From: Aminobacter aminovorans
GTDB taxonomy: Bacteria; Pseudomonadota; Alphaproteobacteria; Rhizobiales; Rhizobiaceae
Direction of reading: 5' to 3'
DNA: 64,000 nucleotides
NCBI RefSeq assembly: GCF_900445235.1
Contig: NZ_UFSM01000001.1
Location: forward strand, 3,673,501-3,737,500
This document shows, piece after piece, positions 1-59,721 of this stretch (the stretch's first letter is position 1; every line of letters starts with the position of its first letter). The translations under genes and the position numbers were made by a program. Below the pieces are notes generated by a model. It searched no databases and was not told the DNA's origin. It was given only the letters and a program-made list of their open reading frames with translations.

Positions 1-984
1 CAGGGCTTCGCGGAAGGCGTCGGCGTCGTCGAGCTTGCCGCCGGTGGCCTTCAGCGCCGAGGCGTAGGCAAGGGCAGCGTCATAACCCTGGCTGGCGTAG
101 TAGGTCACGGGACGGTTGTAGGCCTTGTTCCAGGCTGCCATGAACTTCTTGTTGGCGGCGTTGTCGAAGTCCGCGTTCCAGTGGCTGGTCACGTTGAGGC
201 CGATGGCGGCATCGCCAACCGCGGCAAGAGTGACGCCATCCATCGACGGCTCGGCCACGACCATCGGGATTTCCTTCATCAGGCCCGACTGCTCGTACTG
301 GCGCAGGAAGGTGATGCCGAGGCCGCCCGGATGGAACTGGAACACCACGTCCGGCTTGGCGGCGCGGACCTGGGCGAGCTCGGCGGCGAAATCGGTCTGG
401 TCGAGGCGGGTATAGATTTCGCCTGCGATCTCGCCCTTGAAATAGCGCTTGAAGCCGGCGATGGCATCCTTGCCGGCCTGGTAGTTCGGCGCCAAGACAA
501 AGGCCTTCTTGTAGCCGAGATTGGTGGCGTTCTGGCCGGCACTCTCATGCAGGCTGTCGTTCTGCCAGGAGACGACGAAGTAGTTCGGGTTGCACTCCTT
601 GCCGGCCATGTTCGACGGCGCGGCATTGGGGCTGACATAGAAGGCATCGTTGTCGACGATATCGGGCACGGTGGCGCCGGCGACGTTGGAGAAGACGATG
701 CCGGTAAACAGCTTTATGCCTTCTTCGCCCATGAAGCGTTCGGCGATCTGCTTGCCCTGGCCGGGCTTCAGGCCGTCATCTTCGACCACCAGTTCGACAG
801 GCACGCCGCCAAGCTTGCCCTCCTCCAGCGCCAGCATGAAGCCGTCGCGGATGTCCTGGCCGAGATAGCCGGCCGGGCCAGACAGCGTGGTGATCATACC
901 GATCTTGACGGGATCGGCAGCAATTGCCGGAAACGTCGCAAGGCCCGCGATCGATGCGGCAAGAAGTGTTGTCCTCACATTCAT
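1..984 (-). CDS. ABC transporter substrate-binding protein, branched-chain amino acid type (3' end outside window)
   Basis: Periplasmic ligand-binding protein of the Leu/Ile/Val (Peripla_BP_6) family, cut off by the left edge, so only the N-terminal 328 residues are visible. The start at 984 (MNVRTTLL) gives a Sec signal peptide ending near FPAIAA, followed by the family opening KIGMITTLSGPAGYLGQDI. It is a close paralogue of the proteins at 2000-3169 and 11828-13000. It lies 27 bp after the metallo-beta-lactamase gene and is probably the last visible gene of the operon that starts at 6301. Permease and ATPase genes are not in the window and may lie beyond position 1. The ligand is unknown; the neighbours suggest an aromatic or heteroaromatic compound. 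Confidence 0.9.
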   Translation of the reverse strand, partial: MNVRTTLLAASIAGLATFPAIAADPVKIGMITTLSGPAGYLGQDIRDGFMLALEEGKLGGVPVELVVEDDGLKPGQGKQIAERFMGEEGIKLFTGIVFSNVAGATVPDIVDNDAFYVSPNAAPSNMAGKECNPNYFVVSWQNDSLHESAGQNATNLGYKKAFVLAPNYQAGKDAIAGFKRYFKGEIAGEIYTRLDQTDFAAELAQVRAAKPDVVFQFHPGGLGITFLRQYEQSGLMKEIPMVVAEPSMDGVTLAAVGDAAIGLNVTSHWNADFDNAANKKFMAAWNKAYNRPVTYYASQGYDAALAYASALKATGGKLDDADAFREAL

Positions 985-1011
985 CCTCAGTTCTCCTCTG
1001 ATCGGCGCATT

Positions 1012-1986
1012 TCAGCGCGCATTGTTGATTGCCAGGTCGGTCGCAAGCCGGTCGGTTGCCTCGATGTCGAGAGGCACGAACCGGAACGAAGCCGCCTCTG
1101 CCTTGAGCCGGCCGAAGACAGGAGCGGGAAAATGGTAGGGCGCGAGCACGGTGCCACTGGCTGCCGCAGCACCCAGCAGCCCGATCCGCGTCGCGCGCGC
1201 CAGGACCGGGTCCTCGCAGAAGTTGCAGACGATGCCGTCGTCACCGAGCTGCAGCGGATGATGCACGGCGTCGGCCAGGAATAGTACCTCGCCCTCTTCA
1301 CTGTCGAGCGCGACCACCACCATGCCGGGCGAATGTCCCGGCGCCGGCTTCAGCCGCAAACCTGCCGCCACCTCGGCGTCCGAAGCCACCGCCTCGAAGC
1401 CGACCGATCGGATGATGGGCAACACGCTATCCGCAAAGGCGCCATGCAGCGTGTTGCCGTCGACCGAGGCCTCATGGACCTTGGTCCAGTGGGCCAGCTC
1501 GGTTTCGGCGACGACATAGCGCGCATTGGGAAAGGTCGGCCGCCAGGTTTCGCCTTCCCGCCTTGTGTTCCAGCCGACATGGTCGGCGTGCAGATGCGTG
1601 TTGATGACGATGTCGACGCGCTCGGGCGAGATCCCGATCGCGGCGAGCGTGTCGAGGAACATCGTCTCGCGGCGATGCCAGGCCGGCCGGTGCGGCCGCT
1701 CCTTGCCATCGCCGATGCCGCCGTCGATCAGCGCGACATAGTCAGGTGTCTCGATGACGTAGCAGTTGAAGCTGAGCGCCACCGTCTCACCCGCGGGATC
1801 GACGGTGCCTTCGGGCGAACGCCTGAAAGCAGCTTCCAGATCTTCGCGCGAAAGCCCCGCGAAGATCGCCTTTGCCGGCCAGGCGACATTGGCCATGTCA
1901 GGGATGCAGGTCACCACAACCGGGCCAGCGTGCAGCTGCTCCAGTTCGATGTCGAGTTCACTTATGCGCCGACGCGTGACCTTCAT
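1012..1986 (-). CDS. Metallo-beta-lactamase-fold hydrolase
   Basis: 324-residue MBL-fold protein with the zinc motif HLHADH at residues 131-136 and further metal-ligand histidines downstream (APGHSPG, ADAVHH). The layout resembles AiiA-type lactonases and other MBL hydrolases that open lactones or amides. Start 1986 (MKVTRRR) is chosen over the longer frame from 2034 because it avoids overlapping the end of the preceding binding-protein gene (stop at 2000). It sits between two binding-protein genes in the dioxygenase operon, so a hydrolytic step on a pathway intermediate, or on a related signal molecule, is plausible. The substrate is inferred from context only. Confidence 0.85.
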   Translation of the reverse strand: MKVTRRRISELDIELEQLHAGPVVVTCIPDMANVAWPAKAIFAGLSREDLEAAFRRSPEGTVDPAGETVALSFNCYVIETPDYVALIDGGIGDGKERPHRPAWHRRETMFLDTLAAIGISPERVDIVINTHLHADHVGWNTRREGETWRPTFPNARYVVAETELAHWTKVHEASVDGNTLHGAFADSVLPIIRSVGFEAVASDAEVAAGLRLKPAPGHSPGMVVVALDSEEGEVLFLADAVHHPLQLGDDGIVCNFCEDPVLARATRIGLLGAAAASGTVLAPYHFPAPVFGRLKAEAASFRFVPLDIEATDRLATDLAINNAR

Positions 1987-1999
1987 GCCGCAAGCCGCC

Positions 2000-3169
2000 T
2001 CAAAGGTCGCATTCGCCGGCGAAGGGATCGCCATGCGCGCTCAGCAGCTTCTTGCGGGTCTTGAGCGTCATCTCGCCGGCGGCGTCCTTGACCACCTGCA
2101 TGGCGTACCAGTCCTGCACGGGATGCTGGTTCTTGCCGAAGCTGAAGCTGCCGCGTGTGGTCTTGAACTCGGTCTTGAGCAGCGCCGCACGGAAGGCCTC
2201 GATGTCCTCGACATCGCCTTCCGTCTGCTTGAGCGCCGAGGCGATGGCGAGCGCCGTATCGTAGCCCTGCGCCGCATACATGGTCGGCGTGCGCTTGTAG
2301 GTGTCTGCGAACTTGGCGACGAACTCGCGATTGGTCTCGTTGTCCAAGTCGGTGTTCCATGAACCCGATACGTTCAAACCCGCAGCCGCTTCGCCAACAG
2401 CCTTGAGGATGGCATGATCCATCGACGGCTCGGCAATCACCATCGGCACCGTGCCGAGCAGGCCGGACTGCTGGTACTGGCGCAGAAATGCGATACCCAG
2501 GCCACCTGGCTGAAACTGGAAAACCACGTCAGGGTTGGCGGCCTTGATCTGTGCCATTTCGGCGGCGAAATCGGTCTGATCGAGGCGCGTATAGATCTCG
2601 CCTGCGACCTCGCCCTTGAAGTAGCGCTTGAAGCCCGCGATGGCGTCCTTGCCGGCCTGGTAATTCGGCGCCAGCACGAAGGCCTTCTTGTAGCCGAGAT
2701 CGGTGGCGTTCTGGCCGGCGCTGCCCTGCATCGTGTCGGTCAACCACGACATGACGAAATAGTTTGGATGACAGCCCTTGCCGGCAAATTCGGATGGGCC
2801 GGCATTGGGGCTGACGAAAATCGCATCGGCGTCGACGATCTCGGGAACGGTGGCACCGGCAACGTTCGAGAAGACGATGCCGGTGAACAGCTTCACGCCC
2901 TCGTCGTTCAGAAACTTTTCGGCGATTTGCCGGCCATTGCCCGGCTTGAGGCCGTCGTCCTCCACCAGCACCTTGACCGGCACACCACCAAGCTTGCCAC
3001 CTTCCATGTCGATCGCCAGCTGGAAACCGTCGCGCACGTCCTGGCCGAGATAGCCAGCCGGTCCGGAAAGCGTCGTGATCATGCCGATCTTGAGCGGCTC
3101 TTGGGCAAGCGCACCGGATGCGAAGAACGAGCCGGCCACGAGCGAGACCAGCGAAGACGTCAGTTTCAT
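2000..3169 (-). CDS. ABC transporter substrate-binding protein, branched-chain amino acid type
   Basis: Complete 389-residue periplasmic binding protein. The N-terminus MKLTSSLVSLVAG...GALAQ is a typical Sec signal peptide, and the mature part begins EPLKIGMITTLSG. Start 3169 is preferred to the frame start at 3199 because it gives a normal signal peptide with an AGGAG element upstream. It shares long identical stretches with the copies at 1-984 and 11828-13000, so the three are paralogues. It lies 66 bp after the 3-hydroxyanthranilate dioxygenase gene and 13 bp before the MBL hydrolase, which argues for uptake of the compound the operon degrades. No permease or ATPase for it is visible. Confidence 0.92.
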   Translation of the reverse strand: MKLTSSLVSLVAGSFFASGALAQEPLKIGMITTLSGPAGYLGQDVRDGFQLAIDMEGGKLGGVPVKVLVEDDGLKPGNGRQIAEKFLNDEGVKLFTGIVFSNVAGATVPEIVDADAIFVSPNAGPSEFAGKGCHPNYFVMSWLTDTMQGSAGQNATDLGYKKAFVLAPNYQAGKDAIAGFKRYFKGEVAGEIYTRLDQTDFAAEMAQIKAANPDVVFQFQPGGLGIAFLRQYQQSGLLGTVPMVIAEPSMDHAILKAVGEAAAGLNVSGSWNTDLDNETNREFVAKFADTYKRTPTMYAAQGYDTALAIASALKQTEGDVEDIEAFRAALLKTEFKTTRGSFSFGKNQHPVQDWYAMQVVKDAAGEMTLKTRKKLLSAHGDPFAGECDL

Positions 3170-3235
3170 GCCTTGGAAGCTCCTGCGTTGGAGCGGCACG
3201 CCATCTGGCGAGCCACAGTCAGAAATGCGAACGGA

Positions 3236-3826
<591 letters not shown>

Positions 3827-3890
3827 TCAGGCCCCAGTCGTCTGGCCCAATGTCGTCAGGCCCAAATCGTCAGGCCGAAGCCTTCAGGCC
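3827..3890. repeat. Short tandem repeat, about 14 bp period, five units
   Basis: The heptamer TCAGGCC (once TCTGGCC) recurs at 3827, 3841, 3856, 3870 and 3884, that is every 14-15 bp. The array covers the junction between the DapA-family gene and the dioxygenase gene. The stop codon of the former (TCA at 3870-3872, TGA on the minus strand) lies inside one unit, so the array also encodes the last residues of that protein. It may have arisen by slipped-strand expansion. Confidence 0.8.
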
Positions 3891-4829
3891 ACAGGCCTCG
3901 AATGCGGCACGGGTGGCGCGCTTCTCTGCCTCGGTCAGTTCCAGCAGCGGCGGGCGGACGCGTCCACCCGCCTGCCCCAAAAGCTCCTGCCAATACTTCT
4001 GGTGCGAATGCGGCTTCTCGGCCGGGCGCGTGTTCTTGAGCGCTGAACGTACCGGGTCGAGGCTGGCGCTGATGCGGCGCGCCTCTTCGGCTTTTCCTGA
4101 TAAGGCAAGGTCGGTGTATTCGCGCATGCGCTTGTCGTGCCTGGTCTGGATCAGATAGGGCGGCGACGAGCAGAGATAGAGCTGCCAGTTGAGCTCGAGA
4201 ATGTTGTCGAGCCATTCTTCCTCGGAGGCCGTGCTGACGAGGATGCGGTCGCCGGCAAGTTCCGTCAGTTCCTTGTACATCGGACGCGGCACAGAATACT
4301 TGATGGCGACGACGTTCTCGATGTCGGCGAGCTTGTTGCAAAGACCGGGGCTCATCAGGTAGCCGCTGTCGGGATGGCTCCAGAGTGCTATGCCGATGTC
4401 CACCTTGTCGGCGATGGTGCGGTAGTAGTTGAGCAGCGTCTCGTCCTGCTCCTTGAAGAAGTGCAGGATCGGCGCGTGCACGACGATGTAGTCGGCGCCG
4501 CACTTCTGGGCATGTTTTGCCAGATCGATGACCACGTCCATGTTCTGGTCGGAGCAGGACATGATGGTCTGGGCGCGACCGGCGCAGGCGTCGACGGCGA
4601 GGTCGAAGCTGCGCTTGCGCTCGTCAAGCGACATCGAGAAGAACTCGCCCTGCTTGCCGGCGATGAAAAAGCCGTCGATGCCGAGGTCGCCGATCCAGTG
4701 GTCGACATTGCTGCGGAAACCGTCCTCGTCGATCGAAAGATCATCCTTGAACGGCATCAGGGCGGCAGCCCAGATGCCCTTCATCGTTGCCCTCGAATGG
4801 GCCTTGGCATTCTTCTTGTCGTATTTCAT
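3870..4829 (-). CDS. DapA-superfamily aldolase/hydratase-lyase
   Basis: 319-residue class I (Schiff-base) TIM-barrel protein of the dihydrodipicolinate synthase/N-acetylneuraminate lyase superfamily. The Schiff-base lysine is K177 in VVAIKYS, and the family N-terminal motif GKQGEF is at 58-63. The strand that normally carries the catalytic tyrosine (LYNVP type) reads ALWSHP, with W150 in its place, so true DapA activity is unlikely. A retro-aldol or hydratase-aldolase step on a 2-oxo acid is more likely. An alternative start at 4784 (MKGIWAA), with GAGGG upstream, would give a more standard N-terminus. It lies 38 bp after the aldehyde dehydrogenase gene, so the aldehyde could pass between the two enzymes (inference). 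Confidence 0.88.
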   Translation of the reverse strand: MKYDKKNAKAHSRATMKGIWAAALMPFKDDLSIDEDGFRSNVDHWIGDLGIDGFFIAGKQGEFFSMSLDERKRSFDLAVDACAGRAQTIMSCSDQNMDVVIDLAKHAQKCGADYIVVHAPILHFFKEQDETLLNYYRTIADKVDIGIALWSHPDSGYLMSPGLCNKLADIENVVAIKYSVPRPMYKELTELAGDRILVSTASEEEWLDNILELNWQLYLCSSPPYLIQTRHDKRMREYTDLALSGKAEEARRISASLDPVRSALKNTRPAEKPHSHQKYWQELLGQAGGRVRPPLLELTEAEKRATRAAFEACGLKASA

Positions 4830-4867
4830 CGAATTGCGAACCTTTACGAGGCGATTGCAGGCTTCGG

Positions 4868-6301
4868 CTAGATTGCCATGCGGTGCGAGACGTTCTTGGC
4901 CACCATGTAGTGCAGGATGCCTTCGACACCGCCTTCGCGACCGAAACCGCTCTCCTTGACGCCGCCGAATGGCGTCTCGGCGACCGAGGCCTCAAGCGTG
5001 TTGATCGAGACGTTGCCCGCTTCCAGATCGTCGGTGATCTGGTCGACATTGGCGGCCGAGTTGGTGAAGGCATAGGCAGCGAGGCCGAAAGGCACGCCGT
5101 TGGCCTTCTCGATCGCCTCCTCGAGCGAGGATACGGGATTGATCACCGCCAGCGGGCCGAACGGCTCTTCGCGCATGACGCGGGCATCGTCGGGCAGATC
5201 GGCGAGGATCGTCGGCGGATAGAAATAGCCGCTGTTGCGGGGCCGTTCGCCGCCGAGCAGCAGCTTGGCGCCCTTCGAGACGGCGTCGGCGACCAGCATT
5301 TCCATTGCCTCGACGCGGCGATGATTGGCCACCGGGCCCATCTCGACACCCTCTTCCAGACCATTGCCGACCCTTACGGCGCGGGCACGCTCGATGAAGG
5401 CTTCGGTGAACGACTTGTAGACGCTCTCATGGACGAAGAAGCGGGTCGGCGAGGTGCAGACCTGGCCGGAATTGCGCACTTTGCGGATGGCCGAGGCGAT
5501 GCCGGCCTTCACCGGATCGGCGTCGTCGCAAACGAGCACCGGGGCATGGCCGCCGAGTTCCATCAGCGTCGGCTTCACGTAGCGGGAGGCAAGGCCGGTC
5601 AAGGTCCTGCCGACGGCGGTCGAGCCGGTGAAGGCGATCAGGCGAACCTGCTCCTGCGGGATGAGATACTCGGAAATCTGCGCCGGAATGCCGAAGACGA
5701 GGTTGAGCACGCCGGCGGGAAGGCCGGCATCATGGAAGGCCCGCGCAATGTGCAGGCAGCCGGCAGGCGTCTCTTCCGCCGCCTTGATGATGATCGAGCA
5801 GCCGGCGGCCAAGGCACCGGCGATCTTGCGCGCCGGCTGGCTCATCGGGAAGTTCCACGGCGAAAACGCCGCTACCGTGCCGATCGGCTGGTGATGGACG
5901 ATGTAGCGGATGCCCGGCTCGCTCGGGATGACGCGGCCATAGGTGCGCTGGGCTTCGCCGGCGTCCCATTCGAAGAACTCGGCGCCGCGAATGACTTCGA
6001 GCCGGGCCTGTTGGAACGGCTTGCCGTGCTCGCGAGTGATATCCCTGGCGACCTCGTCGATGCGCTCGCGCAGAAGCGCTGCCGCCTTGCGCAGCACCTC
6101 GGCGCGGCGGGCGGGCGAGGTCTTGCGCCAGACGGCAAAGCCGCGCTCGGCGGCTTCGAGGGCCGCATCCAGATCTCCGGTGGAGGCCACCGGAACGGCG
6201 CCGATCACGCTCTCGTCGGCCGGGTTGATGACGGGCAGCGTTTCCGCAGTCCGCCGCCAGGCGCCACCGATATAGAGCTGGAGATCGGGGTAGTTGGACA
6301 T
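4868..6301 (-). CDS. NAD(P)-dependent aldehyde dehydrogenase
   Basis: 477-residue ALDH-superfamily enzyme, closest in appearance to the succinate-semialdehyde/GabD branch. Visible motifs are SPWNFP (148-153), the TGSTAVG cofactor loop, general base E248 in MELGG and nucleophile C282 in SGQVCTSP. Start 6301 (MSNYPDLQLYIGG) has GAGG seven bases upstream; a longer frame from 6328 is possible. It is the first gene of the minus-strand operon and diverges from a LysR gene. In this context it may oxidise a ring-cleavage semialdehyde, in the role of aminomuconate-semialdehyde dehydrogenase, or an aldehyde released by the DapA-like lyase. The exact substrate cannot be read from sequence. Confidence 0.92.
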   Translation of the reverse strand: MSNYPDLQLYIGGAWRRTAETLPVINPADESVIGAVPVASTGDLDAALEAAERGFAVWRKTSPARRAEVLRKAAALLRERIDEVARDITREHGKPFQQARLEVIRGAEFFEWDAGEAQRTYGRVIPSEPGIRYIVHHQPIGTVAAFSPWNFPMSQPARKIAGALAAGCSIIIKAAEETPAGCLHIARAFHDAGLPAGVLNLVFGIPAQISEYLIPQEQVRLIAFTGSTAVGRTLTGLASRYVKPTLMELGGHAPVLVCDDADPVKAGIASAIRKVRNSGQVCTSPTRFFVHESVYKSFTEAFIERARAVRVGNGLEEGVEMGPVANHRRVEAMEMLVADAVSKGAKLLLGGERPRNSGYFYPPTILADLPDDARVMREEPFGPLAVINPVSSLEEAIEKANGVPFGLAAYAFTNSAANVDQITDDLEAGNVSINTLEASVAETPFGGVKESGFGREGGVEGILHYMVAKNVSHRMAI

Positions 6302-6406
6302 CGGGCGCCTCGGCTTCGCAATTGGCATTAAATTCGACAGTGCCGGGCATCGGCCCGTGCCGTCTTGGTGCCAACATCGGCGGAAACCATTATATCGACA
6401 AGATGG

Positions 6407-6491: not shown

Positions 6492-7403
6492 GTGAAGATC
6501 ACGATCAAGCAAATCCAGCAGTTCCTGGCGGTCGCCGAGCTCGGCAGTTTTTCGCGCGCCTCGAAGCGGCTTGGAACCGCGCAACCGGCGCTGTCGCAGG
6601 CAATCCGTGATCTCGAAGCGGAATTGTCGGTGCGCCTGTTCGACCGCACCACGCGCCGGGTCGAACTGACCGATGCGGGACGAGAGTTCCAGAACTCGGC
6701 AACCAAGGTGATCGAGGAGTTGGAGCATGCGGTCGAGGGCGTGCACATGCTGGCCGAACGCCGGCGCGGACGCCTGCGCATCGCCGCCCCGCCGCTGCTC
6801 GCCTCGGTCGTGCTGCCGCAGGCCATCGCCGAGTTCCAGAGGAGTTATCCCGGCATATCGGTGCAACTCGCCGACGTCGGCACCGAGCAGATCGTCGAAA
6901 GCGTGCGCAGCGGCCAGGCCGATTGCGGCCTCGGCACCTTCTCACCTGCTGAGGACGGCATCGAGCGGCTGTCTCTGGTGCGCGACAGCCTGATGCTGTT
7001 CTGCGACCACGACAGCCCGTTTCATGGGGCGGAGACCGTCAAATGGGCCGCTCTGGCGGAACAGCCGTTGATCACGCTGACGCGCGACAGCGGCATCCGG
7101 CTGCTCGTCGAAGTCGGCTTCGAGATGGCGCAGATCCCGTTCAAGCCGGCCTATGAGGTGACGCAGGTGACGACGGCCATCGCCCTTGTCGAGGCAGGCC
7201 TCGGCATTGCCGTCCTGCCCACCTATGCTCTGGCGGCGGCGCGTTTCAGGAAGGTCGCCGGCAAGCCCTTGGCCGAGCCCACCATCTCGCGCGAGGTGTC
7301 GCTGATCCACGCCACCGGGCGCTCGGTGTCGCCTGCCGTCTCGGCCTTTGCCGGCGTCGTGCGCCGCTATGCCCAGCAACTGACGCCACGCGAAGCCAAC
7401 TGA
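6492..7403 (+). CDS. LysR family transcriptional regulator
   Basis: 303-residue LysR-type regulator. The N-terminal winged helix-turn-helix spans about residues 3-62 (QQFLAVAELGSFSRASKRL ... FDRTTRRVELT), followed by a periplasmic-binding-like effector domain. The start is GTG at 6492. It diverges from the ALDH-DapA-dioxygenase operon with a palindromic T-N11-A site between them, so it is most likely the activator of that operon, with a pathway compound as co-inducer. A copy of a dispersed repeat follows its stop codon. Confidence 0.93.
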   Translation: MKITIKQIQQFLAVAELGSFSRASKRLGTAQPALSQAIRDLEAELSVRLFDRTTRRVELTDAGREFQNSATKVIEELEHAVEGVHMLAERRRGRLRIAAPPLLASVVLPQAIAEFQRSYPGISVQLADVGTEQIVESVRSGQADCGLGTFSPAEDGIERLSLVRDSLMLFCDHDSPFHGAETVKWAALAEQPLITLTRDSGIRLLVEVGFEMAQIPFKPAYEVTQVTTAIALVEAGLGIAVLPTYALAAARFRKVAGKPLAEPTISREVSLIHATGRSVSPAVSAFAGVVRRYAQQLTPREAN

Positions 7404-7408
7404 CGCAT

Positions 7409-7510
7409 AGAGCGGCTACGCTTTTCTTCGAATCGCGGAACAACTCCATGTTCCTGTTTTTGCGCGGTTCCGGACGGAAAACCGCTGCGCACTTGTCCTG
7501 GAATTGCTCA
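7409..7510. repeat. Dispersed intergenic repeat, copy 1 (family also at 52914 and 55366)
   Basis: About 100 bp with conserved blocks: an AGAGC-like left end, CTTTTCTTCGAATCGC near the left end, CCGGACGGAAAACCGCTG in the middle and GGAATTGCTC at the right end. The same blocks recur at 52914-53013 and 55366-55469. It fills the gap between the convergent LysR and alpha/beta hydrolase genes and reaches the hydrolase stop codon (7508-7510). Confidence 0.85.
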
Positions 7511-8377
7511 GCCCTTGATCAGGCGGAGCAACGCCTGCGACAGGACACTATCCTCGGAGGCAAGGTCGAGCAGCACGTCGAAATGGTTGCGGCCGGGGAT
7601 TTCCATCAGCTGCGAGGCGAAGCCCGCCTCGCGCCACATCTGGTCATAGGCGGTCGACTGCCGCCGGAAGCCGTCAGGCTCGCCATCGGCATAGGCAACG
7701 ACGATCTGGCAGCCGATCCGTGGCAGGTTCGCCGCCGGGCTCAGCCGTTCGACCGCCGCCTCGTCAAGCTTGATCCAGTCCTGCACGAACGATCTTGCAA
7801 TCGGCGCAAGATGGAACAGGCCGCTGATCGGCAGCGCCCCCTTGATGACGTCTTCCGGCACGCCAGCCTCGACGTGCCAGCCGCCCGAGAGCACGGCCCC
7901 CGTCAGGTGCCCGCCGGCGGAGCTGCCGCCGACATGAATGCGTTCGGGATCGATGCCGAACTCGCGACCGTTCTTCCACAAGAAGCCGATCGCCGCCCTC
8001 ACCTCGCGCACGATCTCGTCGAGCGACGCCTCGGGCGCCAGCCGGTAATCGACCACGGCGGTGGCGATGCCGTTCTTGGCCAGCATCGCCGCCATGAAGG
8101 CGGAATCATGCTTGGACAGCATGCGCCAGTAGCCGCCATGGACGAAGACGAAGACCGGCCGCGGCTCGCCCGAGGTGCCATAGATATCGATCGTCTGGCC
8201 GCTCTGCTCGTCATAGACGACGTCGAGATGCGTGGCATGGTCCCGCATCTCCTCGGAGCGGCTTCGGTAGTCACGCATCGCCGCCTCGAAGACCTCAGGC
8301 GTCACGGAAGCCCGCGCGCCATAGTCGCGGTCGAGGACGTCACGCGGCCAGTTGGCTTCTTCGGCAAGCACGCTCAT
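7508..8377 (-). CDS. Alpha/beta hydrolase of the arylformamidase/esterase type (AqdA-like)
   Basis: 289-residue alpha/beta hydrolase. The oxyanion motif HGGYW is at 80-84, the nucleophile elbow GSSAG has S153, and the probable catalytic histidine is H265 in GRNHF. This HGG(F/Y)W type includes kynurenine formamidases and HSL-like esterases. ATG at 8377 has AGGAGG five bases upstream; a GTG two codons earlier is less likely. It is the third gene after a flavin monooxygenase and a HOD-like dioxygenase, 12 bp after the latter. That is the gene set of bacterial alkylquinolone degradation, in which such a hydrolase cleaves N-acylanthranilate to anthranilate and a fatty acid. This role is inferred from context. 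Confidence 0.85.
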   Translation of the reverse strand: MSVLAEEANWPRDVLDRDYGARASVTPEVFEAAMRDYRSRSEEMRDHATHLDVVYDEQSGQTIDIYGTSGEPRPVFVFVHGGYWRMLSKHDSAFMAAMLAKNGIATAVVDYRLAPEASLDEIVREVRAAIGFLWKNGREFGIDPERIHVGGSSAGGHLTGAVLSGGWHVEAGVPEDVIKGALPISGLFHLAPIARSFVQDWIKLDEAAVERLSPAANLPRIGCQIVVAYADGEPDGFRRQSTAYDQMWREAGFASQLMEIPGRNHFDVLLDLASEDSVLSQALLRLIKG

Positions 8378-8389
8378 GCGCACCTCCTG

Positions 8390-9178
8390 TCAGGCGACGA
8401 AGGCACGGATGGTGTCGGCCACCACCTTGGGCTGCTCGAGCGTCGGGAAGTGCGTCCTGCCGGGCAGCTTGTTGGGCTGGTACCAGTCGTTGCCGGCGGC
8501 GAAATCGAGCTGCGCCTGGGCATATTCGGGCTCGAAGGGCTGCGAATAGATGTGGGTGATCGGACGCTTGTCCTTGAGTGCTGCCATGCGCTGCATCGGA
8601 TTGCCCCATTTGCGATAGGCCTTGCCGATCTCGCGGCCGGACCGCGCCCACATTTCGAAGCTGTATTTGGCCATCTCGTTGTTGACGTGATTGACGATGT
8701 CCTGGTTCTCGGTGTCGCCGATCCAGTAGTTGAAGAAATCGCCGCGGCCATTCTCCCAGTTTGTGCGATCCTGGATGTGGTCGATCATGCGGAAGAAGTC
8801 TTCGTTCGGCGTGGTCTGGATCCAGTCGATGACGACGGTACGCGGGATGCGCGCCACATCAAGACGGTCGGTCACCTCGATGTTGGCCCAGCCGCCATGC
8901 GAGGTCGACACCGGCACCAGCCTGTCGATGTTCATCTTGTCGAGGAAGGCGACGACGTCGGACGCCTGGTCGTCGACGGTGAAGTCGCCGTCATGTTCTC
9001 GGTTCTCGCCATGGCCGCGCCAGTCCAGGCGGATGACGCGATGGGTCCTGGCAAGCTCGGGCGCCAGCGTCTTGAACAGGCGGTGGTCCTGGCACCAGCC
9101 CGACAGAAGCAGCAGCACCTCGCCCTCGCCGGCCTCGTCATAAGAAAGCATGTTGGCGCCGATCTCGATGGATTTCAT
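8390..9178 (-). CDS. Cofactor-free 2,4-dioxygenase of the HOD/QDO/AqdC type
   Basis: 262-residue alpha/beta-hydrolase-fold protein resembling 1H-3-hydroxy-4-oxoquinaldine 2,4-dioxygenase (Hod), as recalled from memory. That family cleaves 3-hydroxy-4(1H)-quinolones with O2 and no metal or flavin, releasing CO and an N-acylanthranilate. Shared blocks are GWCQDHR (27-33), WRGHG, SHGGW with S93 and H94, the dyad aspartate D118 in VVIDWI, WARSGREI, SQPFEPEY and the catalytic base H243 in RTHFP. The serine, histidine and aspartate of the family are therefore kept. Start 9178 has GGAGA upstream. It sits between the flavin monooxygenase and the amidase-like hydrolase. Family assignment is strong; the 2-substituent of the substrate is unknown. 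Confidence 0.88.
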   Translation of the reverse strand: MKSIEIGANMLSYDEAGEGEVLLLLSGWCQDHRLFKTLAPELARTHRVIRLDWRGHGENREHDGDFTVDDQASDVVAFLDKMNIDRLVPVSTSHGGWANIEVTDRLDVARIPRTVVIDWIQTTPNEDFFRMIDHIQDRTNWENGRGDFFNYWIGDTENQDIVNHVNNEMAKYSFEMWARSGREIGKAYRKWGNPMQRMAALKDKRPITHIYSQPFEPEYAQAQLDFAAGNDWYQPNKLPGRTHFPTLEQPKVVADTIRAFVA

Positions 9179-9225
9179 CTGATGTCTCCGAATTCTGGGG
9201 CGCATCGCACCCTATGTTCCCTTGG

Positions 9226-10383
9226 TCAGGCGAGCGGCTCGGTGGCGGTCGGCGCATGACGAGCAGTCTTCATGCGCTCAGCGCCGAGTTCGCGGCTCTT
9301 GCCGGTAATCTTCATCACTTGCGAGCGCAGATCGTCAGGCCAGAAATTCATGTCCCCGAGGCGTTCGGCGGTGTCCTGGGTGTGCTCGGTGATCGGCCGT
9401 TCGCGCTCTTCCCAGGCAGCCAGCGCCTGCTCGATGTCGGCCGCATTTGCAACGGCGGCGGCGAGCCCAAGGCCGTTCATCAGCGCGCAGCCGCCGCCCT
9501 GCCCGAGATAAGGCGGCATGGCATGCGCTGCATCGCCCAGGATCGCCGCGCGGCCCTTGCTCCACTTCTTGAGCTTGACCACCTCGAAGGCATCCCAACG
9601 ACCGGCGTCTCCGAAACGCGAGACAAGGTGGGCGAGATGCGGGAAGGATTCGGTCCACAGCGCCCGGTCGGCCGGAACCTTGAGCGCGGCAGCGTCATCG
9701 GCGGCGCAGCACAGCGCAACATAGAGGTCGGTGGCGCTGGCCGGGGTGTAGAGAATGCGACGGGTGCCGGTGAAATATTCGATGTAGCGGTCGCGGTCCT
9801 CTGCCGGCACGTCGGCATCGTCGCGGCCGATCAGCATGCGGATCGCGCCATAGCCGAGATGCTTGCGGTACATCATCAGGTCGAGCGAGTCGCGCACCTT
9901 TGAGTTGATGCCATCGGCGCCGACGACGAGGTCGGCCTTGCGTCGCGCACCGTCGGCCAGCAGCAACTCGCCCTCTGGCGTCGCGCCCACCGCTTCCGAA
10001 TTGGTCATGATCTCGACACCGCTGCGGCGGCAGGTGTCGACCAGTGAATTGATCAGCTGCTCGCGCAGGATGGTGATCAGCCTGGCGTCGCCCTGAGCGT
10101 TGATGGGGATTTCCTCCATCGTGGTGTTGTGGTGGTCGCGAGTATGGAACTGCGGTCCGATATGGGCGCCGACGACGGCCTGCTCATAGGCGCCGATCGC
10201 CTTCAGCACGCGCAGGCCGTTGCTCCAGATGTAGATGCCGGCGCCAAAGGTGCGCAGGTTCGGCGCGCGCTCGTGCACTGTCACCGACCAGCCACGCTGG
10301 GCCAATGCGGCAGCCGTGGTCAGGCCGCCAATTCCAGCGCCTGCGATCTCCGCGTGGCGCCCGGCTCCGGTTTTCTCGGTCAT
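9226..10383 (-). CDS. Group A FAD-dependent aromatic monooxygenase (MHPCO/PqsH/AqdB-like)
   Basis: 385-residue single-component flavoprotein hydroxylase. The dinucleotide motif GAGIGG is at 15-20, the DG motif GADG near 155-158 and the GD motif ILGDAAHAMPP at 281-291. The N-terminal third strongly resembles 2-methyl-3-hydroxypyridine-5-carboxylate oxygenase of mesorhizobial vitamin B6 catabolism (shared block FGAGIYIW.NGLRVL). Start 10383 (MTEKTG) follows a GGAGGACAA ribosome-binding site. It is the first gene of the three-gene operon, so the likely job is to hydroxylate the N-heteroaromatic ring at C3 and so supply the HOD-like dioxygenase. Direct ring opening, as in MHPCO, is an alternative. 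Confidence 0.9.
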   Translation of the reverse strand: MTEKTGAGRHAEIAGAGIGGLTTAAALAQRGWSVTVHERAPNLRTFGAGIYIWSNGLRVLKAIGAYEQAVVGAHIGPQFHTRDHHNTTMEEIPINAQGDARLITILREQLINSLVDTCRRSGVEIMTNSEAVGATPEGELLLADGARRKADLVVGADGINSKVRDSLDLMMYRKHLGYGAIRMLIGRDDADVPAEDRDRYIEYFTGTRRILYTPASATDLYVALCCAADDAAALKVPADRALWTESFPHLAHLVSRFGDAGRWDAFEVVKLKKWSKGRAAILGDAAHAMPPYLGQGGGCALMNGLGLAAAVANAADIEQALAAWEERERPITEHTQDTAERLGDMNFWPDDLRSQVMKITGKSRELGAERMKTARHAPTATEPLA

Positions 10384-10530: not shown

Positions 10531-10546
10531 ATTCAGACAAGTGAAT
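10531..10546. promoter_or_regulatory. Candidate LysR operator in the monooxygenase/LysR divergent region
   Basis: A perfect inverted repeat with arms ATTCA and TGAAT around a 6-bp centre matches the T-N11-A form of LysR boxes. It lies 68 bp upstream of the LysR start at 10614 and about 150 bp upstream of the monooxygenase start. Further A/T-rich half-site-like elements (GGAAATTCC at 10552-10560) follow it. Confidence 0.5.
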
Positions 10547-10613
10547 TCTCTGGAAATTCCTATGAGGATTTGGAATATCAACTTGGACGCAACGACTTGA
10601 AGGCAAGGCTCCG

Positions 10614-11549
10614 ATGAAACTCGTCACCAGCCGTCTCACCATCCGCCATCTGCGCATGGTCGTGGCAATCGTCGAAGAGGGCAATCTGGTGCGCGCCGCC
10701 AAGCGCCTGAACATGACCCAGTCGGCGGTGACCAAGGCGCTGCAGGAAATCGAGGCGTTGACCAAGGCGAGGCTGTTCGACCGCACCAATCGTGGCGTCG
10801 TGCCGACGATGTTCGGCGACACGCTGGCCGAGCACGCGCGCCTCGTCATCACCCAGCTGGCGCATGCCGAGGAACATCTCGCCGACCTGCGCGACGGCAC
10901 CGGTGGGCGCGTCGCCATCGGCACCTTGCTGTCGGCGTCGGCCGAATTGCTGCCGACGGCCATCGCCCGCCTGCGCAAGGAGCGGCCCAAGCTCGTGGTC
11001 AAGATCGTCGAGGGCACCAATGACGTCTTGATCCCGGCATTGCGCGCCGGCGAACTGGACATGGTGGTCGGGCGCCTGTCCGAACAGCGCGACCGGCTGA
11101 ATGTCGTCCAGGAGGTGCTGATGGACGACATCGCCTGTGTCGTGGCGCGTCGCGGCCATCCGCTGGCCGAGCGCAGCGAGCTCAACCTCGCCGACCTGAT
11201 CGGCTGGGAATGGATCCTGCCGCCGCAGGAAACCAGCCTGCGCCGACAGATCGACATCGCCTTCCGCGAGGAAGGGCTGGAGCCGCCGTCGCATGCGGTG
11301 GATTCCGTCTCGCTACTGACCAACAGGGCGCTGTTGATCGACGCCGACTATCTCGGCGTGTTTCCCGCCCAGGTCGCGCGCCGCGAGGCCGCCGCCGGCG
11401 CCATCGTCATACTGCCGGTGACCTTGCGCGCCACGGCCATGCCGATGGGCATCACCACCCGGACCAATGCGAGGCTGTCGCCGGCTGCCGAAGTGCTGGT
11501 GGAAACGCTGCGACGGACCGCCGCCGACCTGGCGCGCCATGACGTATAA
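10614..11549 (+). CDS. LysR family transcriptional regulator
   Basis: 311-residue LysR-type regulator with an N-terminal winged helix (LTIRHLRMVVAIVEEGNL ... LFDRTNRGVVPT, residues 8-66) and a C-terminal inducer-binding domain. The N-terminal style matches the GbpR/PcaQ subgroup found near aromatic and sugar catabolism genes. It diverges from the monooxygenase-dioxygenase-hydrolase operon and precedes a binding-protein gene on the same strand. It is the expected regulator of the operon and perhaps of the transporter component. Confidence 0.92.
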   Translation: MKLVTSRLTIRHLRMVVAIVEEGNLVRAAKRLNMTQSAVTKALQEIEALTKARLFDRTNRGVVPTMFGDTLAEHARLVITQLAHAEEHLADLRDGTGGRVAIGTLLSASAELLPTAIARLRKERPKLVVKIVEGTNDVLIPALRAGELDMVVGRLSEQRDRLNVVQEVLMDDIACVVARRGHPLAERSELNLADLIGWEWILPPQETSLRRQIDIAFREEGLEPPSHAVDSVSLLTNRALLIDADYLGVFPAQVARREAAAGAIVILPVTLRATAMPMGITTRTNARLSPAAEVLVETLRRTAADLARHDV

Positions 11550-11827: not shown

Positions 11828-13000
11828 ATGCATTTCAAGGGAATCTTGTCGGCCGCCGTCATGGCACTGTCGGTCAGCGCGGCTTATGCCGAAGACCCGC
11901 TCAAGATCGGCATGATCACGACGCTTTCGGGGCCGGCCGGCTATCTTGGCCAGGACATCCGCGACGGCTTCCAGTTGGCCATCGACTCCAACAAAGGACA
12001 GCTTGGCGGCAAGGCCGTCGAACTGGTTGTCGAGGACGACAGCCTGAAGCCGGGCAACGCCAAGCAGATCGCCGACAAGATGCTGTCTGAGCAAGGCATC
12101 AAGCTGTTCACCGGCATGGTGTTCGCCAACGTCGCCTTCGCCGCCCTGCCCGACATTCTCGACGGCGATGCGATCTATATCAGCGCCAACACGGCATCGG
12201 CCACCTTCGCCGGCAAGGAATGCCACCCGAACTACTTCGTCAGCTCCTGGCAGGACGACAGCCAGGGCGAGAGCGCCGGCGCGCTGGCCCAATCTCTCGG
12301 CTACAAGAAGGCCTTCCTGATCGCGCCGAACTACCAGGCCGGCAAGGAAACGATGGGCGCCTTCAAGCGCTTCTACAAGGGAGAGGTCGTCGGCGAGACC
12401 TATACCGGCCTCGACCAGACCGACTTCGCCGCCGAGATGGCACAGATCCGCGCCGCCAAGCCCGACGTCGTCTACGAGTTCGAGCCGGGCGGCCTCGGCA
12501 TCGCCTTCATGCGCCAGTACCAGCAGGCCGGCCTACTCAAGGACATCCCGATGGTCGTCCATCCGGCGTCCCTCGACCAGGTCATCGTCGGTGCCGTCGG
12601 CGACGCCGCGCTCGGCGTGAAGGTCACCAGCCACTGGAACGACGACTTCGACAATCCTGTGAACAAGGACTTCGTCGCGGCTTGGAAGGCCAAGTTCGGC
12701 GACCGTCCGATCACCTATTATGCCGCCCAAGGCTATGACGCAGCACTTTTGATCGGCACCGGCCTTGAAAAGGCAAATGTCGACGACCTGCCGGCCTTCC
12801 GCAAGGCGCTGCTGACGTCGGAAATTCCGTCGGTGCGCGGTTCGTTCAAGTTCGGCCCCAACCAGCACCCGGTGCAGGACTGGTATTCGCTCAAGGCGGA
12901 AAAAGGCGCTGACGGCAAGATGGTGCTCAAGACCGAGGCCAAGGTGCTGACGGCGCATAGCGACAGCTATGCCGCCGACTGCAAGATGCCGACGGACTAG
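11828..13000 (+). CDS. ABC transporter substrate-binding protein, branched-chain amino acid type
   Basis: 390-residue periplasmic protein, third paralogue of the pair at 1-984 and 2000-3169. The signal peptide MHFKGILSAAVMALSVSAAYA precedes EDPLKIGMITTLSG. ATG 11828 has an AAGAGGA ribosome-binding site. The 278 bp between it and the LysR gene contain no further gene that I can support. It points away from the HOD operon but is next to its regulator, so it probably imports the substrate of that operon. It ends at a perfect hairpin at 13016-13046. Confidence 0.92.
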   Translation: MHFKGILSAAVMALSVSAAYAEDPLKIGMITTLSGPAGYLGQDIRDGFQLAIDSNKGQLGGKAVELVVEDDSLKPGNAKQIADKMLSEQGIKLFTGMVFANVAFAALPDILDGDAIYISANTASATFAGKECHPNYFVSSWQDDSQGESAGALAQSLGYKKAFLIAPNYQAGKETMGAFKRFYKGEVVGETYTGLDQTDFAAEMAQIRAAKPDVVYEFEPGGLGIAFMRQYQQAGLLKDIPMVVHPASLDQVIVGAVGDAALGVKVTSHWNDDFDNPVNKDFVAAWKAKFGDRPITYYAAQGYDAALLIGTGLEKANVDDLPAFRKALLTSEIPSVRGSFKFGPNQHPVQDWYSLKAEKGADGKMVLKTEAKVLTAHSDSYAADCKMPTD

Positions 13001-13426: not shown

Positions 13427-14371
13427 ATGCTGAAGACATCAGGGGCGGACAAGGAAGGTGCAGCTGAGCGTCGTGCGATCAGCGCGGATCTGATTGCGGT
13501 GCTTGTCGCTGCACCCAACGGAAATCCTGTCGTCCTGACGGTCAAGGAAGGCACCACCCTGCCCTCCGGCCCGTTCGCGCTTGGTCACCGTTCGCTGCAA
13601 TCAGGTCTGCGCGATTGGGTGGAGCAGCAGACCGGCCACCCGCTTGGATACATCGAGCAGCTCTACACCTTCGCCGACCGCGACCGCAGCATCGAGGAAG
13701 CCACCCGTCGGGTGATTTCGATCAGCTATCTCGGCCTGACGCGCGAAGAGCCCTCGCATCGCACGCCGCCGGGCAGCTGGCGCAACTGGTACGAATTCTT
13801 CCCCTGGGAGGACCATCGTACGGGCGCGCCCGCAATCCTCGACGACATCATCGTGCCGCGCCTGCGTCAGTGGGCCGATGCTGCCGAGCAAGAGGACAAG
13901 CGGCAGAACCGTCTGCGCCGCGCCGCCGGCGCTTTCGGCTTCGACGACCGTCACTGGAACGAAGAGCTGGTGCTGCAGCGCTACGAGTTGCTGTTCGAGG
14001 CAGGTCTGGTCGAAGAGGCGGTGCGCGCCAAAGGCGAGGCTGCCGTTTCATCCGTGCCGGGCCGAACCATGACCGGCGATCACAGGCGAATCCTCGCCAC
14101 CGGCATCGGCCGCCTCCGGACCAAGATCAAATATCGCCCCGTGGTGTTCGAGCTGATGCCGCCGGCCTTCACGCTGCTGCAGCTGCAGCGCGCGGTCGAA
14201 GCACTGGCAGGCGTTACCGTGCACAAGCAGAATTTCCGCCGCCTTATCGAGCAGCAGGACCTGGTCGAGGAAACCGGCGAAATGAGCGCCGACACCGGTG
14301 GACGCCCGGCGAAACTGTTCCGTTTCCGCCACGCCGTGCTCGACGAACGTCTGATCGCCGGAACCAAATAA
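13427..14371 (+). CDS. NadQ/NrtR-like Nudix-related transcriptional regulator of NAD synthesis
   Basis: 314-residue protein with an N-terminal Nudix-like domain (about 18-150; no intact catalytic Nudix box) and a C-terminal winged helix (about 225-310, FTLLQLQRAVEALAGV ... FRRLIEQQDLVEE ... GRPAKLFRF). This is the architecture of NrtR-type NAD repressors, in which the former hydrolase domain senses an NAD-related metabolite. It lies directly upstream of nadABC with two palindromes in between (14397-14413 and 14422-14444). It probably represses nadA-led transcription when NAD is sufficient. Assignment comes from architecture and context. Confidence 0.85.
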   Translation: MLKTSGADKEGAAERRAISADLIAVLVAAPNGNPVVLTVKEGTTLPSGPFALGHRSLQSGLRDWVEQQTGHPLGYIEQLYTFADRDRSIEEATRRVISISYLGLTREEPSHRTPPGSWRNWYEFFPWEDHRTGAPAILDDIIVPRLRQWADAAEQEDKRQNRLRRAAGAFGFDDRHWNEELVLQRYELLFEAGLVEEAVRAKGEAAVSSVPGRTMTGDHRRILATGIGRLRTKIKYRPVVFELMPPAFTLLQLQRAVEALAGVTVHKQNFRRLIEQQDLVEETGEMSADTGGRPAKLFRFRHAVLDERLIAGTK

Positions 14372-14384
14372 GCGAAATCGTGGG

Positions 14385-14444
14385 TTGACAGAGGTTATGC
14401 TCATGCTAAGCATATGTCCCAATTATACTCACTGCGAGCATAAT
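14385..14444 (+). promoter_or_regulatory. nadABC promoter with two regulator palindromes
   Basis: A TTGACA -35-like box is at 14385-14390. Operator 1 (14397-14413) has arms ATGCT and AGCAT. Operator 2 (14422-14444) has arms ATTATACTC and GAGCATAAT around five bases, with one mismatch. The two share the half-site ATGCTC/GAGCAT. Operator 2 ends just before the AGGAG ribosome-binding site (14445-14449) of nadA, so bound protein could block both transcription and translation start. Confidence 0.65.
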
Positions 14445-14454
14445 AGGAGTAACG

Positions 14455-15429
14455 ATGTCTGGCATGACCCCTTCCGCCGCCTCGCTCTATGACCGCGTCC
14501 AGCGCGTCATTCCCGCCATCGAGTGGCCGGTATTCTCCGATGACATCGACGCCATACTGAGGCTCAAGCGCGAGCGCAACGCCGTCATCCTGGCGCATAA
14601 CTACCAGACCCCGGAGATCTTCCATTGCGTGGCCGATATCGTCGGCGACAGCCTGGCGCTCGCCCGCAAGGCGATGGAGGTCGAGGCCGACGTGATCGTG
14701 CTCGCCGGCGTGCATTTCATGGCCGAGACGGCCAAGCTGCTGAACCCGTCCAAGACGGTGCTGATCCCCGACATGGGCGCCGGCTGCTCGCTCGCCGATT
14801 CGATCACGCCCGAAGACATCCGCCTGCTGCGCCAGCGCTATCCCGGCGTGCCCGTCGTCACCTATGTCAACACTTCGGCTGCGGTGAAGGCGGAATCGGA
14901 CATCTGCTGCACCTCGGGCAATGCCAAGGCGGTCGTGGAATCGCTCGGCGTGCCGCGCGTGCTGATGCTGCCGGACGAGTATCTGGCGCAGAACATCGCT
15001 GCCCAGACCGATGTCGAGATCATCGCCTGGAAGGGCCATTGCGAGGTGCATGAGCGCTTCACGCCCGAGGATATCCGCGAGATGCGCGCCGCCCATCCCG
15101 GCGTCACCGTGCTGGCCCATCCCGAATGCCCGCCGGAGGTCGTTGCCGAAGCCGATTTCGCCGGCTCGACGGCCGCAATGTCCGACTATGTCGGCCGGGT
15201 GAAGCCGGCCCGCGTCGTTTTGGTGACGGAATGCTCGATGAGCGACAATGTCGCGGTCGACCATCCCGATGTCGAGTTCATTCGCCCCTGCAATCTGTGC
15301 CCGCACATGAAGCTGATCACGCTCGGCAACATCCGCTCCGCCCTGGAACGCAACGAACACGCCGTGACCATCGACCCAGCCGTCGCGGTGCGCGCGCGCC
15401 TCGCCGTCGAGCGGATGCTCGCGGTATGA
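14455..15429 (+). CDS. nadA: Quinolinate synthase A
   Basis: 324-residue [4Fe-4S] enzyme that condenses iminoaspartate with dihydroxyacetone phosphate to quinolinate. Recognisable blocks are [29 protein letters not shown] and the late cysteine segment [10 protein letters not shown]. Conserved cysteines for the cluster are present ([20 protein letters not shown]). ATG 14455 has AGGAG six bases upstream. It is the first gene of nadABC, and the stop overlaps the nadB start (ATGA at 15426). Confidence 0.97.
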
Positions 15430-16964
15430 ACGACATCGTTCGCCTGGCCGGCCGCCCCGTCATCATCGGCGGCGGGCTCGCAGGCCTGATGACGGCGCTC
15501 GAACTGGCACCGGAGCCGGTCGTGCTGCTGTCGGCAACTCCGCTGGGTGGCGAAGCCTCAAGCGCACTCGCGCAAGGCGGGCTTGCGGCGGCGATCGGCA
15601 ACGACGACTCGCCCGAACTGCATCTCGCCGACACGCTGGCTGCCGGCGATGGCCTGTGCGACGAAACAGTCGTCCGGCGCATCGTCGAGGCAGCGCCATT
15701 GGCCATCGAGAGGCTCGCGGAACTTGGCGTCGCCTTCGACCGCGACGCCAACAGCGTCTTGTCGCTGGGGCTCGAGGCTGCCCATTCCCGCAGGCGCATC
15801 GTCCACGCGGCGGGTGCTGCAACCGGGCGCGAACTGATGCGCGCGCTCGTGGCCGCTGTCCGCAACAGGGCTTCGATAACGGTCGTCGAAGGGTTCGCGG
15901 CGCGCCGGCTGCTCGTCGAGGACGATGCGATAGCCGGTGTGCTCGCTGAAGACGGCTTCGGCAGCACGGTGTTTGCCAGCAGCCGCGTCGTGATCGCCAC
16001 GGGTGGCGTCGGCGGGCTGTTTCGCGACACGACGAACCCGCTCGGCTGCTTCGGCCAGGGGCTGGCACTCGCCGCCCGCGCAGGCGCGGCCTTTGCCGAC
16101 CTCGAATTCGTCCAGTTTCACCCGACCGCACTCGACGGCCTGCTGCGGCCGATGCGGCTGGTAAGCGAGGCGGTGCGCGGCGAAGGTGCCGTGCTGATCG
16201 ACGAAACCGGACGGCGCTTCCTCGCCGACCTGCCCGGTGCCGAACTTGGCACCCGCGACGCGGTTGCACGCGGCGTCCATCGCCATCTCGCCCGCGGCCA
16301 CCGGGTGTTTCTCGACGCCCGAGCCTGCCTGGGCAAAAGCTTCGCTGACCGCTTTCCGACAATTGCCGGCTACTGCCACGAAGCAGGGATCGACCCCGCG
16401 CAAGACCCGATTCCGGTACGGCCTGCCGCCCATTATCACATGGGCGGCGTCGCGGTAGACCGCGAGGGCCGCAGCACCGTATCTGGCTTGTGGGCCTGCG
16501 GCGAAGTCGCCTCGACCGGGCTGCATGGCGCCAACCGCCTTGCCAGCAACTCCCTCACCGAAGCCGTCGTCATGGCCGGCTGGGTGGCACGGAGCGTCGC
16601 CGCCACTCGGGACACGAGCCGCATGACAACCGCCTTGCCGCCAGCACCAATGCATCCCGATCCACGCGATGCATGCAAGATCGTCTCGTCTTCGCTCGGC
16701 GTCCTGCGCGACGGCGAGAGCCTGCGCCAGGCGGCGACGGCACTGCTGCCGATTGCCAGCGGCAATTCGCCGGCAGCCGATCCAGCCGCTGTCGCGCTGA
16801 TGATGGCCATTTCGGCACTCGGCCGCGAGGAAAGCCGCGGCGCCCATTGCCGCAGCGACTTTCCCTTGCGAAGCGCGGTCGCGCGCCGGTCGCACATCAC
16901 ACTCGATGCAGCGCTGCAGGCCGCAGCTTCGCTCGATTTCTTGCCCATTGCCCGGAGCGCCTGA
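15426..16964 (+). CDS. nadB: L-aspartate oxidase
   Basis: 512-residue FAD enzyme that oxidises aspartate to iminoaspartate for NadA. It has an N-terminal GGGLAG dinucleotide motif, the succinate-dehydrogenase-like core [10 protein letters not shown], substrate arginines in RGEGA and the C-terminal [10 protein letters not shown] flavin motif. The length is normal. It overlaps nadA by four bases and is followed two bases later by nadC, so the three should be co-translated. Confidence 0.97.
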
Positions 16965-16966
16965 CG

Positions 16967-17818: not shown

Positions 17819-17880
17819 CCGGGGCAATGGTCCCGCCCCGAGTGGGGATGGCAAGGACACGTCTTGGCAATGGAGAGCGC

Positions 17881-58467: not shown

Positions 58468-58473
58468 GCCGCC

Positions 58474-59625: not shown

Positions 59626-59721
59626 ACTGCGGCAAAGACAAGTTTGTTGTTCAAGGGTTTCTTAGCTCATCTTTGATATGTCAATCTGGCAAACGGGCGA
59701 CCAGCCAACAGATCGACGACG

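Follow-up and report, generated by a model that had tools for sequence, protein, structure and literature searches.

Among the described enzymes that open 3-hydroxy-4-quinolones without a cofactor, the nearest to the one considered here is 1H-3-hydroxy-4-oxoquinoline 2,4-dioxygenase (Qdo) of Pseudomonas putida 33/1, whose structure is solved (3ibt) and which acts on plain 3-hydroxy-4-quinolone. Another such enzyme, Hod, belongs to the quinaldine pathway of Arthrobacter sp. Rue61a, which shares the same reaction logic and CO release and yields N-acetylanthranilate. The aqdRABC clusters of Rhodococcus and Mycobacteroides also bring together a monooxygenase, a cofactor-free dioxygenase (AqdC) and a hydrolase, and aqd clusters are described with a TetR regulator and a type B carboxylesterase, AqdA (PMC5332414). 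Here we analyze a 64,000-nucleotide stretch of the Aminobacter aminovorans genome (the window, on contig 1 of a genome of 5 contigs and 5.89 Mb), in which a Qdo-type dioxygenase gene, flanked by genes for a group A flavin monooxygenase (FMO) and an alpha/beta hydrolase, adjoins an operon for 3-hydroxyanthranilate 3,4-dioxygenase (HAO). We propose a two-part catabolic pathway, in which the quinolone trio would form 3-hydroxyanthranilate and a lower part led by HAO would consume it, a reading whose chances we regard as about evenly balanced. What makes it chiefly interesting is the connection with 3-hydroxyanthranilate and the close pairing of HAO with a lyase of the DapA superfamily (DapA-like).

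The original prediction for this stretch, made from the letters alone, had described three consecutive open reading frames on one strand, accompanied by a LysR regulator and a binding protein, as a cassette for quinolone-type ring cleavage that has a cofactor-free 2,4-dioxygenase and lies outside the aqd clusters of actinobacteria. The analysis supports this description. The three frames follow one another on the minus strand, separated by 47 and 12 bases, the HGGYW motif is present in the hydrolase, and the LysR gene is divergent from the trio and followed by the binding-protein gene; we consider the observation confirmed and the enzyme class secure with high confidence. The prediction was correct about the three genes but incomplete, in that it overlooked the genes for HAO, an aldehyde dehydrogenase (ALDH), the DapA-like protein and a transporter at 1-6328; the cassette is not the self-contained unit of three genes that had been envisaged, since it adjoins a 3-hydroxyanthranilate module.

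The dioxygenase has an alpha/beta-hydrolase fold nearest to those of Qdo, Hod and AqdC. Its likeliest start is the ATG at 9178, giving 262 amino acids (that of the hydrolase is the ATG at 8377), and its best solved relative is P. putida Qdo (E 1.4e-80), to which it is identical at 124 of 261 positions (47.5%), as compared with 102/254 for Hod and 98/254 for AqdC. The residues singled out in the prediction (S93, H94, D118 and H243) are all there and do not vary across 23 aligned sequences, the window's included; together with W28 and W152, they are the equivalents of Hod Ser101, His102, Asp126, His251, Trp36 and Trp160. Qdo has the same Ser/His/Asp/His set, and the pocket residues Q30 and T92 match its Gln and Thr, whereas Hod and AqdC carry His there; one position at which the enzyme departs from Qdo is Gly181, where Qdo has Cys. 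In the phylogenetic tree, the protein stands apart from ordinary hydrolases and groups with Qdo at 99/99, with five of the six outgroup hydrolases outside; the sixth falls inside on a branch of 7.95, and the program flags the branches of Qdo, Hod and AqdC as long. An ordinary esterase identity was rejected on the basis of this tree and the fold. The expectation of an aqd-type dioxygenase was not borne out, as Qdo is nearest by sequence, by residues and by tree, and we therefore class the enzyme, judging by its sequence, as Qdo-type and not as an alkylquinolone enzyme of the AqdC/Hod type; O2-dependent ring cleavage with release of CO is presumed. The gene is single-copy in the genome, where six further matches are partial and at most 33% identical, and its closest homologs are found in A. 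carboxidus (98%) and A. ciceronei (97%).

Among solved structures, the FMO is closest to MHPC oxygenase (E 3.1e-77, 140/329 identical), an enzyme from the breakdown of vitamin B6 in Mesorhizobium loti; the gene neighborhoods of the two differ, and Tyr82 of MHPC oxygenase is replaced by Phe79. For the hydrolase, the best solved relatives are a lipase (9n8r), an esterase (2pbl) and a kynurenine formamidase (4e11). It scores 75.2 bits with BD-FAE (cut-off 26.8) and 26.4 bits with COesterase, below the cut-off of 27, so that no match to the type B carboxylesterases, to which AqdA belongs, exceeds the cut-off. A formamidase-like hydrolase fits the N-formyl product expected from a quinolone unsubstituted at C2. 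Near the dioxygenase gene in five actinobacterial loci (L039, L042, L052, L053 and L054) lies a gene for an acyl-CoA-dehydrogenase-like protein, clustered with a flavin reductase in L042 and L054. This protein could be a two-component hydroxylase that replaces the FMO; the L042 protein, however, scores well over the cut-off for the curated name HsaA, a steroid enzyme.

A profile search for the dioxygenase gave 50 loci, of which one (L057, a partial match of 33%) was dropped, leaving 26 rhizobial and 23 other loci. The FMO accompanies the dioxygenase in all 26 rhizobial loci, and the hydrolase gene is next to them in 24. One of these 24, from Brucella cytisi (L033:10001), has a broken dioxygenase frame that ends after 13 codons, with the neighboring genes retained. 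HAO is encoded in 22 of the 26 rhizobial loci; those without it are L018 and L023, plus L019 and L024, which lie on contigs that stop early. Outside the rhizobia, HAO is found in 5 of the 23 loci, three from Actinomycetota (L039, L043, L050) and two from Bacillota (L040, L045). Among 297 genomes of the bacterial family, 13 encode the dioxygenase and 32 have an HAO over the family cut-off, of which we counted 29 (at least 148 bits), leaving out three at 26-28 bits, none with the dioxygenase. Both enzymes are encoded in 11 of the 13 dioxygenase genomes, on the same contig and 3.1-5.6 kb apart, as compared with HAO in 18 of the 284 genomes without the dioxygenase (Fisher 7e-11, a value that ignores shared ancestry). 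On the dioxygenase tree (43 rows, after exclusion of six short-contig loci and L033), the presence of HAO changes state at least six times. In two further genomes of the family (L077 and L078), there is a dioxygenase-FMO pair of lower similarity (45-48% and 42-43% identity), accompanied by Liv-type transporter genes but not by HAO; this pair possibly serves a different quinolone substrate.

The association recurs in another form in Paenibacillus (L045), where a run of genes, all on the plus strand, includes an IclR regulator, HAO (244.8 bits, cut-off 220) and ACMSD, the usual next enzyme after HAO, here identified by its nearest solved relatives, which are named ACMSD (323.9 bits). The run also carries a RidA-type protein, an ALDH, a hydratase/decarboxylase-type pair (one of the two was scanned with NCBIfam and fell below the cut-off), and an acetaldehyde dehydrogenase and a 4-hydroxy-2-oxovalerate aldolase, both over cut-off, together with a BD-FAE hydrolase, a Qdo-type dioxygenase and an FMO. 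Of the 12 gaps between HAO and the amidohydrolase gene, 10 are shorter than 60 bases, the other two measuring about 215-220. No further oxygenase is seen between base 3 and base 16201 of this locus. The simplest flow suggested by this gene run leads from an 8-hydroxy-4-quinolone to 3-hydroxyanthranilate and on to central metabolism.

Other genes recur around these modules. Fourteen of the 23 non-rhizobial loci (L035, L037, L039, L040, L042, L043, L045, L046 and L050-L055) show a TRZ/ATZ-type amidohydrolase together with the Qdo-type gene, and that of L050 has atrazine chlorohydrolase as its nearest solved relative; such an enzyme perhaps deaminates or dehalogenates the ring ahead of hydroxylation. 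The large subunit of a molybdenum hydroxylase adjoins LysR1, the regulator divergent from the HAO operon, in the place that the ALDH gene takes in other loci, in L026, L028, L064, L068 and L070, and homologs of it (44-53%) also adjoin HAO in L102, L103 and L109.

The HAO of the window scores 277.5 bits with NF009763 (cut-off 220) and 268.6 with a second curated model (cut-off 145.95), and a search of the whole genome gave this one match. The DapA-like protein is encoded in 27 of the 297 genomes (E 1e-60 or better), all of them among the 29 with HAO; the two genes lie within 200 bases of each other in 24 genomes, 4.3 kb apart in one and on different contigs in two. Two HAO genomes lack it: G122 has an ACMSD-type cluster, and the HAO of G062 is divergent, with a stop in its frame. 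When 46 HAO loci are compared, the DapA-like protein (at least 50% identity) occurs in 32, ACMSD in 4 and both in none; in 29 HAO loci outside the family (flanks of about 1.5 kb), the corresponding numbers are 6, 5 and 0, with neither in 18. The constant pairing with HAO, with ACMSD in the same locus in none of those examined, suggests an uncharacterized ACMSD-free lower route for 3-hydroxyanthranilate. This genome holds no convincing ACMSD, the best match to a query that is an ACMSD by its solved relatives reaching 27% identity and 53.4 bits.

The nba-type pathway for 3-hydroxyanthranilate consists of HAO, ACMSD, a semialdehyde dehydrogenase and a deaminase. The window has in common with it the ring-opening HAO and an aldehyde dehydrogenase, but the DapA-type HAO loci show the lyase and an aspartate-dehydrogenase homolog (NadX) instead of ACMSD, and no RidA-type deaminase, hydratase or aldolase was seen in them. 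The ALDH differs as well: in the ACMSD-type locus L050 it scores 745.7 bits, above the 2-hydroxymuconic-semialdehyde cut-off of TIGR03216 (693.25), whereas that of the window, at 294.6 bits, is far below. The lyase keeps the Schiff-base lysine (K177, 39/39) and has an invariant Trp150 at the position of a Tyr that is catalytic in DapA; at 87 bits it falls well short of the cut-off of the DapA equivalog, 4-hydroxy-tetrahydrodipicolinate synthase (206.15), and its model fits the NAL/DHDPS superfamily generically. Beyond the left edge of the window, the HAO operon extends through genes for two Liv-type permeases, two ATPases and the NadX homolog. The latter, with 2dc1 and 1j5p as its nearest structures, is placed in the aspartate dehydrogenase family by a curated subfamily cut-off (NF009828, 223.4 bits against 177), though it does not reach those of the equivalog models. 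Of the 32 DapA-like HAO loci, 18 show a NadX homolog of at least 40% identity, and three of the other 14 show one of 35-39%; in the remaining 11, transporter genes reach the fetched edge.

Family, subtype, gene linkage, DapA-HAO co-occurrence and the lack of a convincing ACMSD in this genome are computed results; in the scheme that follows, every substrate and product, the sense in which the pathway runs and the reactions of its lower part are inferred. The FMO would hydroxylate a 4(1H)-quinolone at C3; in the Qdo-type dioxygenase, His243 and Asp118 would deprotonate the 3-hydroxy-4-quinolone, O2 would cleave it at C2 and C4 with loss of C3 as CO, and the HGGYW hydrolase would take off the N-formyl group. 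HAO uses 3-hydroxyanthranilate, and a plain 4-quinolone would give anthranilate. Because the product would pass to HAO, the likeliest substrate would be 8-hydroxylated, with neither an alkyl nor a carboxyl group at C2, such as 4,8-dihydroxyquinoline, from which the cassette would make 3-hydroxyanthranilate with release of CO and formate. HAO would then open the ring to aminocarboxymuconate semialdehyde, and the DapA-like lyase, the ALDH and the NadX homolog would process the opened product in place of ACMSD.

That product is a 3-(3-oxopropenyl)-aminofumarate, which holds an iminosuccinate unit. The lyase may hydrate it and cleave it between C3 and C4 by a retro-aldol reaction to iminosuccinate and a C3 aldehyde; the NadX homolog would reduce iminosuccinate to aspartate, and the ALDH would oxidize the C3 piece. 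Two reasons lead us to propose this cut: the product holds that unit, and the DapA-type loci do not show the deaminase, hydratase and aldolase of the classical route. The cut and the order of reactions are chemical reasoning, and the chief alternative for the lower step is a DapA-like enzyme that decarboxylates. That HAO, the DapA-like lyase, the NadX homolog and the ALDH form an unrecognized ACMSD-free route, fed in Aminobacter and its relatives by a Qdo-type cassette, is a tentative proposal, which we consider possible but less likely than not. If the two-part pathway is right, the cofactor-free 2,4-dioxygenases have a second product line, 3-hydroxyanthranilate rather than anthranilate, and bacteria of soil and plants have a tie between quinolone breakdown and the metabolism of tryptophan. 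The pairing of lyase and HAO in 27 of 27 genomes directly raises the question of how aminocarboxymuconate semialdehyde is removed without ACMSD, for which these genes would be a concrete candidate. Among the open-access papers that limited searches listed, none dealt with a rhizobial Qdo cassette, a quinolone route to 3-hydroxyanthranilate or a DapA-HAO route, which is weak evidence of novelty.

Several observations weigh against this pathway. No gene within the window would make the 8-hydroxyl, and no pocket residue of the dioxygenase was found that would read it. Enzymes that might introduce a hydroxyl elsewhere are encoded in other loci, namely a P450 in Streptomyces L043 and an additional two-component oxygenase in Brevibacillus L040. 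In 18 of the 23 non-rhizobial loci no HAO is in view, 2 of the 13 dioxygenase genomes have none, and the rhizobial loci share descent, so that their counts are not independent. The modules are also separable, since the 18 genomes mentioned above have HAO and not the dioxygenase, and the hydrolase occurs in 6 of 19 HAO loci without the dioxygenase. Homologs of tryptophan dioxygenase and kynureninase elsewhere in the genome could supply 3-hydroxyanthranilate or anthranilate. One kynureninase homolog (G000:C3:136730-137893) is over cut-off; a second (G000:C4:144093-145260) is split into two pieces that lie in different frames, and the tryptophan dioxygenase homolog is about 5 kb away.

These homologs and the separability of the modules would be expected if the cassette merely turned a plain 4-quinolone into anthranilate and the HAO operon, co-located with it, served tryptophan and kynurenine breakdown. 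This reading, which we consider possible but rather unlikely, also has in its favor that the closest characterized enzyme, Qdo, acts on the plain substrate. HAO-DapA adjoins kynureninase in three loci, which agrees with it and also supports 3-hydroxyanthranilate as the substrate of the module. Mere co-location is countered by the recurrence of the linkage in other phyla with a different, ACMSD-type HAO module, including the same-strand run of Paenibacillus. Moreover, no anthranilate 1,2-dioxygenase over cut-off is present in this genome (115.8 against 671.9), although other routes for anthranilate were not tested.

The original prediction had also listed kynurenate-like compounds as substrates. 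Direct degradation of kynurenate or xanthurenate, which are 2-carboxylated, would pass through N-oxalyl-(3-hydroxy)anthranilate to (3-hydroxy)anthranilate. As a natural 8-hydroxy-4-quinolone, xanthurenate is well known, and the FMO retains Arg182, Arg209 and Tyr221 at positions that bind the substrate in MHPC oxygenase, which acts on a carboxylate. We nevertheless regard such substrates as distinctly improbable and do not favor them, because the 19 ligand-contact positions of Hod that were mapped onto the dioxygenase include no Asp, Glu, Lys or Arg, and the hydrolase is formamidase-like. Xanthurenate is named in PMC3053476.

Degradation of alkylquinolone signals, as suggested by the analogy with aqd, has very little chance of being the function, and PQS and HHQ are unlikely substrates: the grouping of three enzymes is shared, but the dioxygenase is of the Qdo and not the AqdC type by residues and tree, the regulator is LysR and not TetR, and the hydrolase appears to be of the BD-FAE/lipase/kynurenine formamidase kind. 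As residues, tree, hydrolase and regulator all disagree with it, we rejected this function. Synthesis of quinolinate for NAD by HAO, to which the nadA and nadC homologs about 11-13 kb away, beside an NrtR-type regulator, might point, is highly improbable and was set aside, since NadA is already encoded, HAO runs with the DapA-like, ALDH and ABC transporter genes, and nadA is in view at just 3 of the 26 rhizobial loci, all from Aminobacter.

Features of the quinolone and 3-hydroxyanthranilate genes, with positions in the window unless a locus is named
Feature	Position	Strand	Remarks
Third binding protein (Peripla_BP_6)	1-984	-	extends past the left edge of the window
Metallo-beta-lactamase-fold protein	1012-2034	-	in HAO operon; present in a minority of loci
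Periplasmic binding protein SBP1	2000-3199	-	
HAO	3236-3781	-	sole copy found in genome
DapA-superfamily lyase (DapA-like)	3870-4829	-	linked to HAO; Lys177 invariant 39/39
ALDH	4868-6328	-	succinate/ketoglutarate-semialdehyde type, not 2-hydroxymuconic type
LysR regulator 1 (LysR1)	6492-7403	+	divergent from HAO operon
HGGYW alpha/beta hydrolase (ABH)	7508-8377	-	289 aa; presumed N-formyl-(3-hydroxy)anthranilate amidohydrolase; BD-FAE/Abhydrolase_3
Qdo-type cofactor-free 3-hydroxy-4-quinolone 2,4-dioxygenase	8390-9178	-	262 aa
Group A FMO	9226-10383	-	385 aa; presumed 4-quinolone 3-hydroxylase; FAD_binding_3; MHPC oxygenase relative
Conserved element between FMO and LysR2	10539-10579		candidate LysR operator; alignment of 26 intergenic regions, window included
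LysR regulator 2 (LysR2)	10614-11549	+	PcaQ-like but below PcaQ cut-off; divergent from FMO
Periplasmic binding protein SBP2 (Peripla_BP_6)	11828-13000	+	start taken at the ATG with signal-peptide-like sequence
Aspartate-dehydrogenase homolog (NadX)	L083:9064-9891	-	left of window

To the right of the quinolone genes, the window contains an NrtR-type regulator, nadA, nadC and a biotin-type cluster (13427-23033), and further on a set of polysaccharide genes (55471-62492) that encode a Wzz-domain protein, a sugar transferase and an O-antigen-ligase-like protein.

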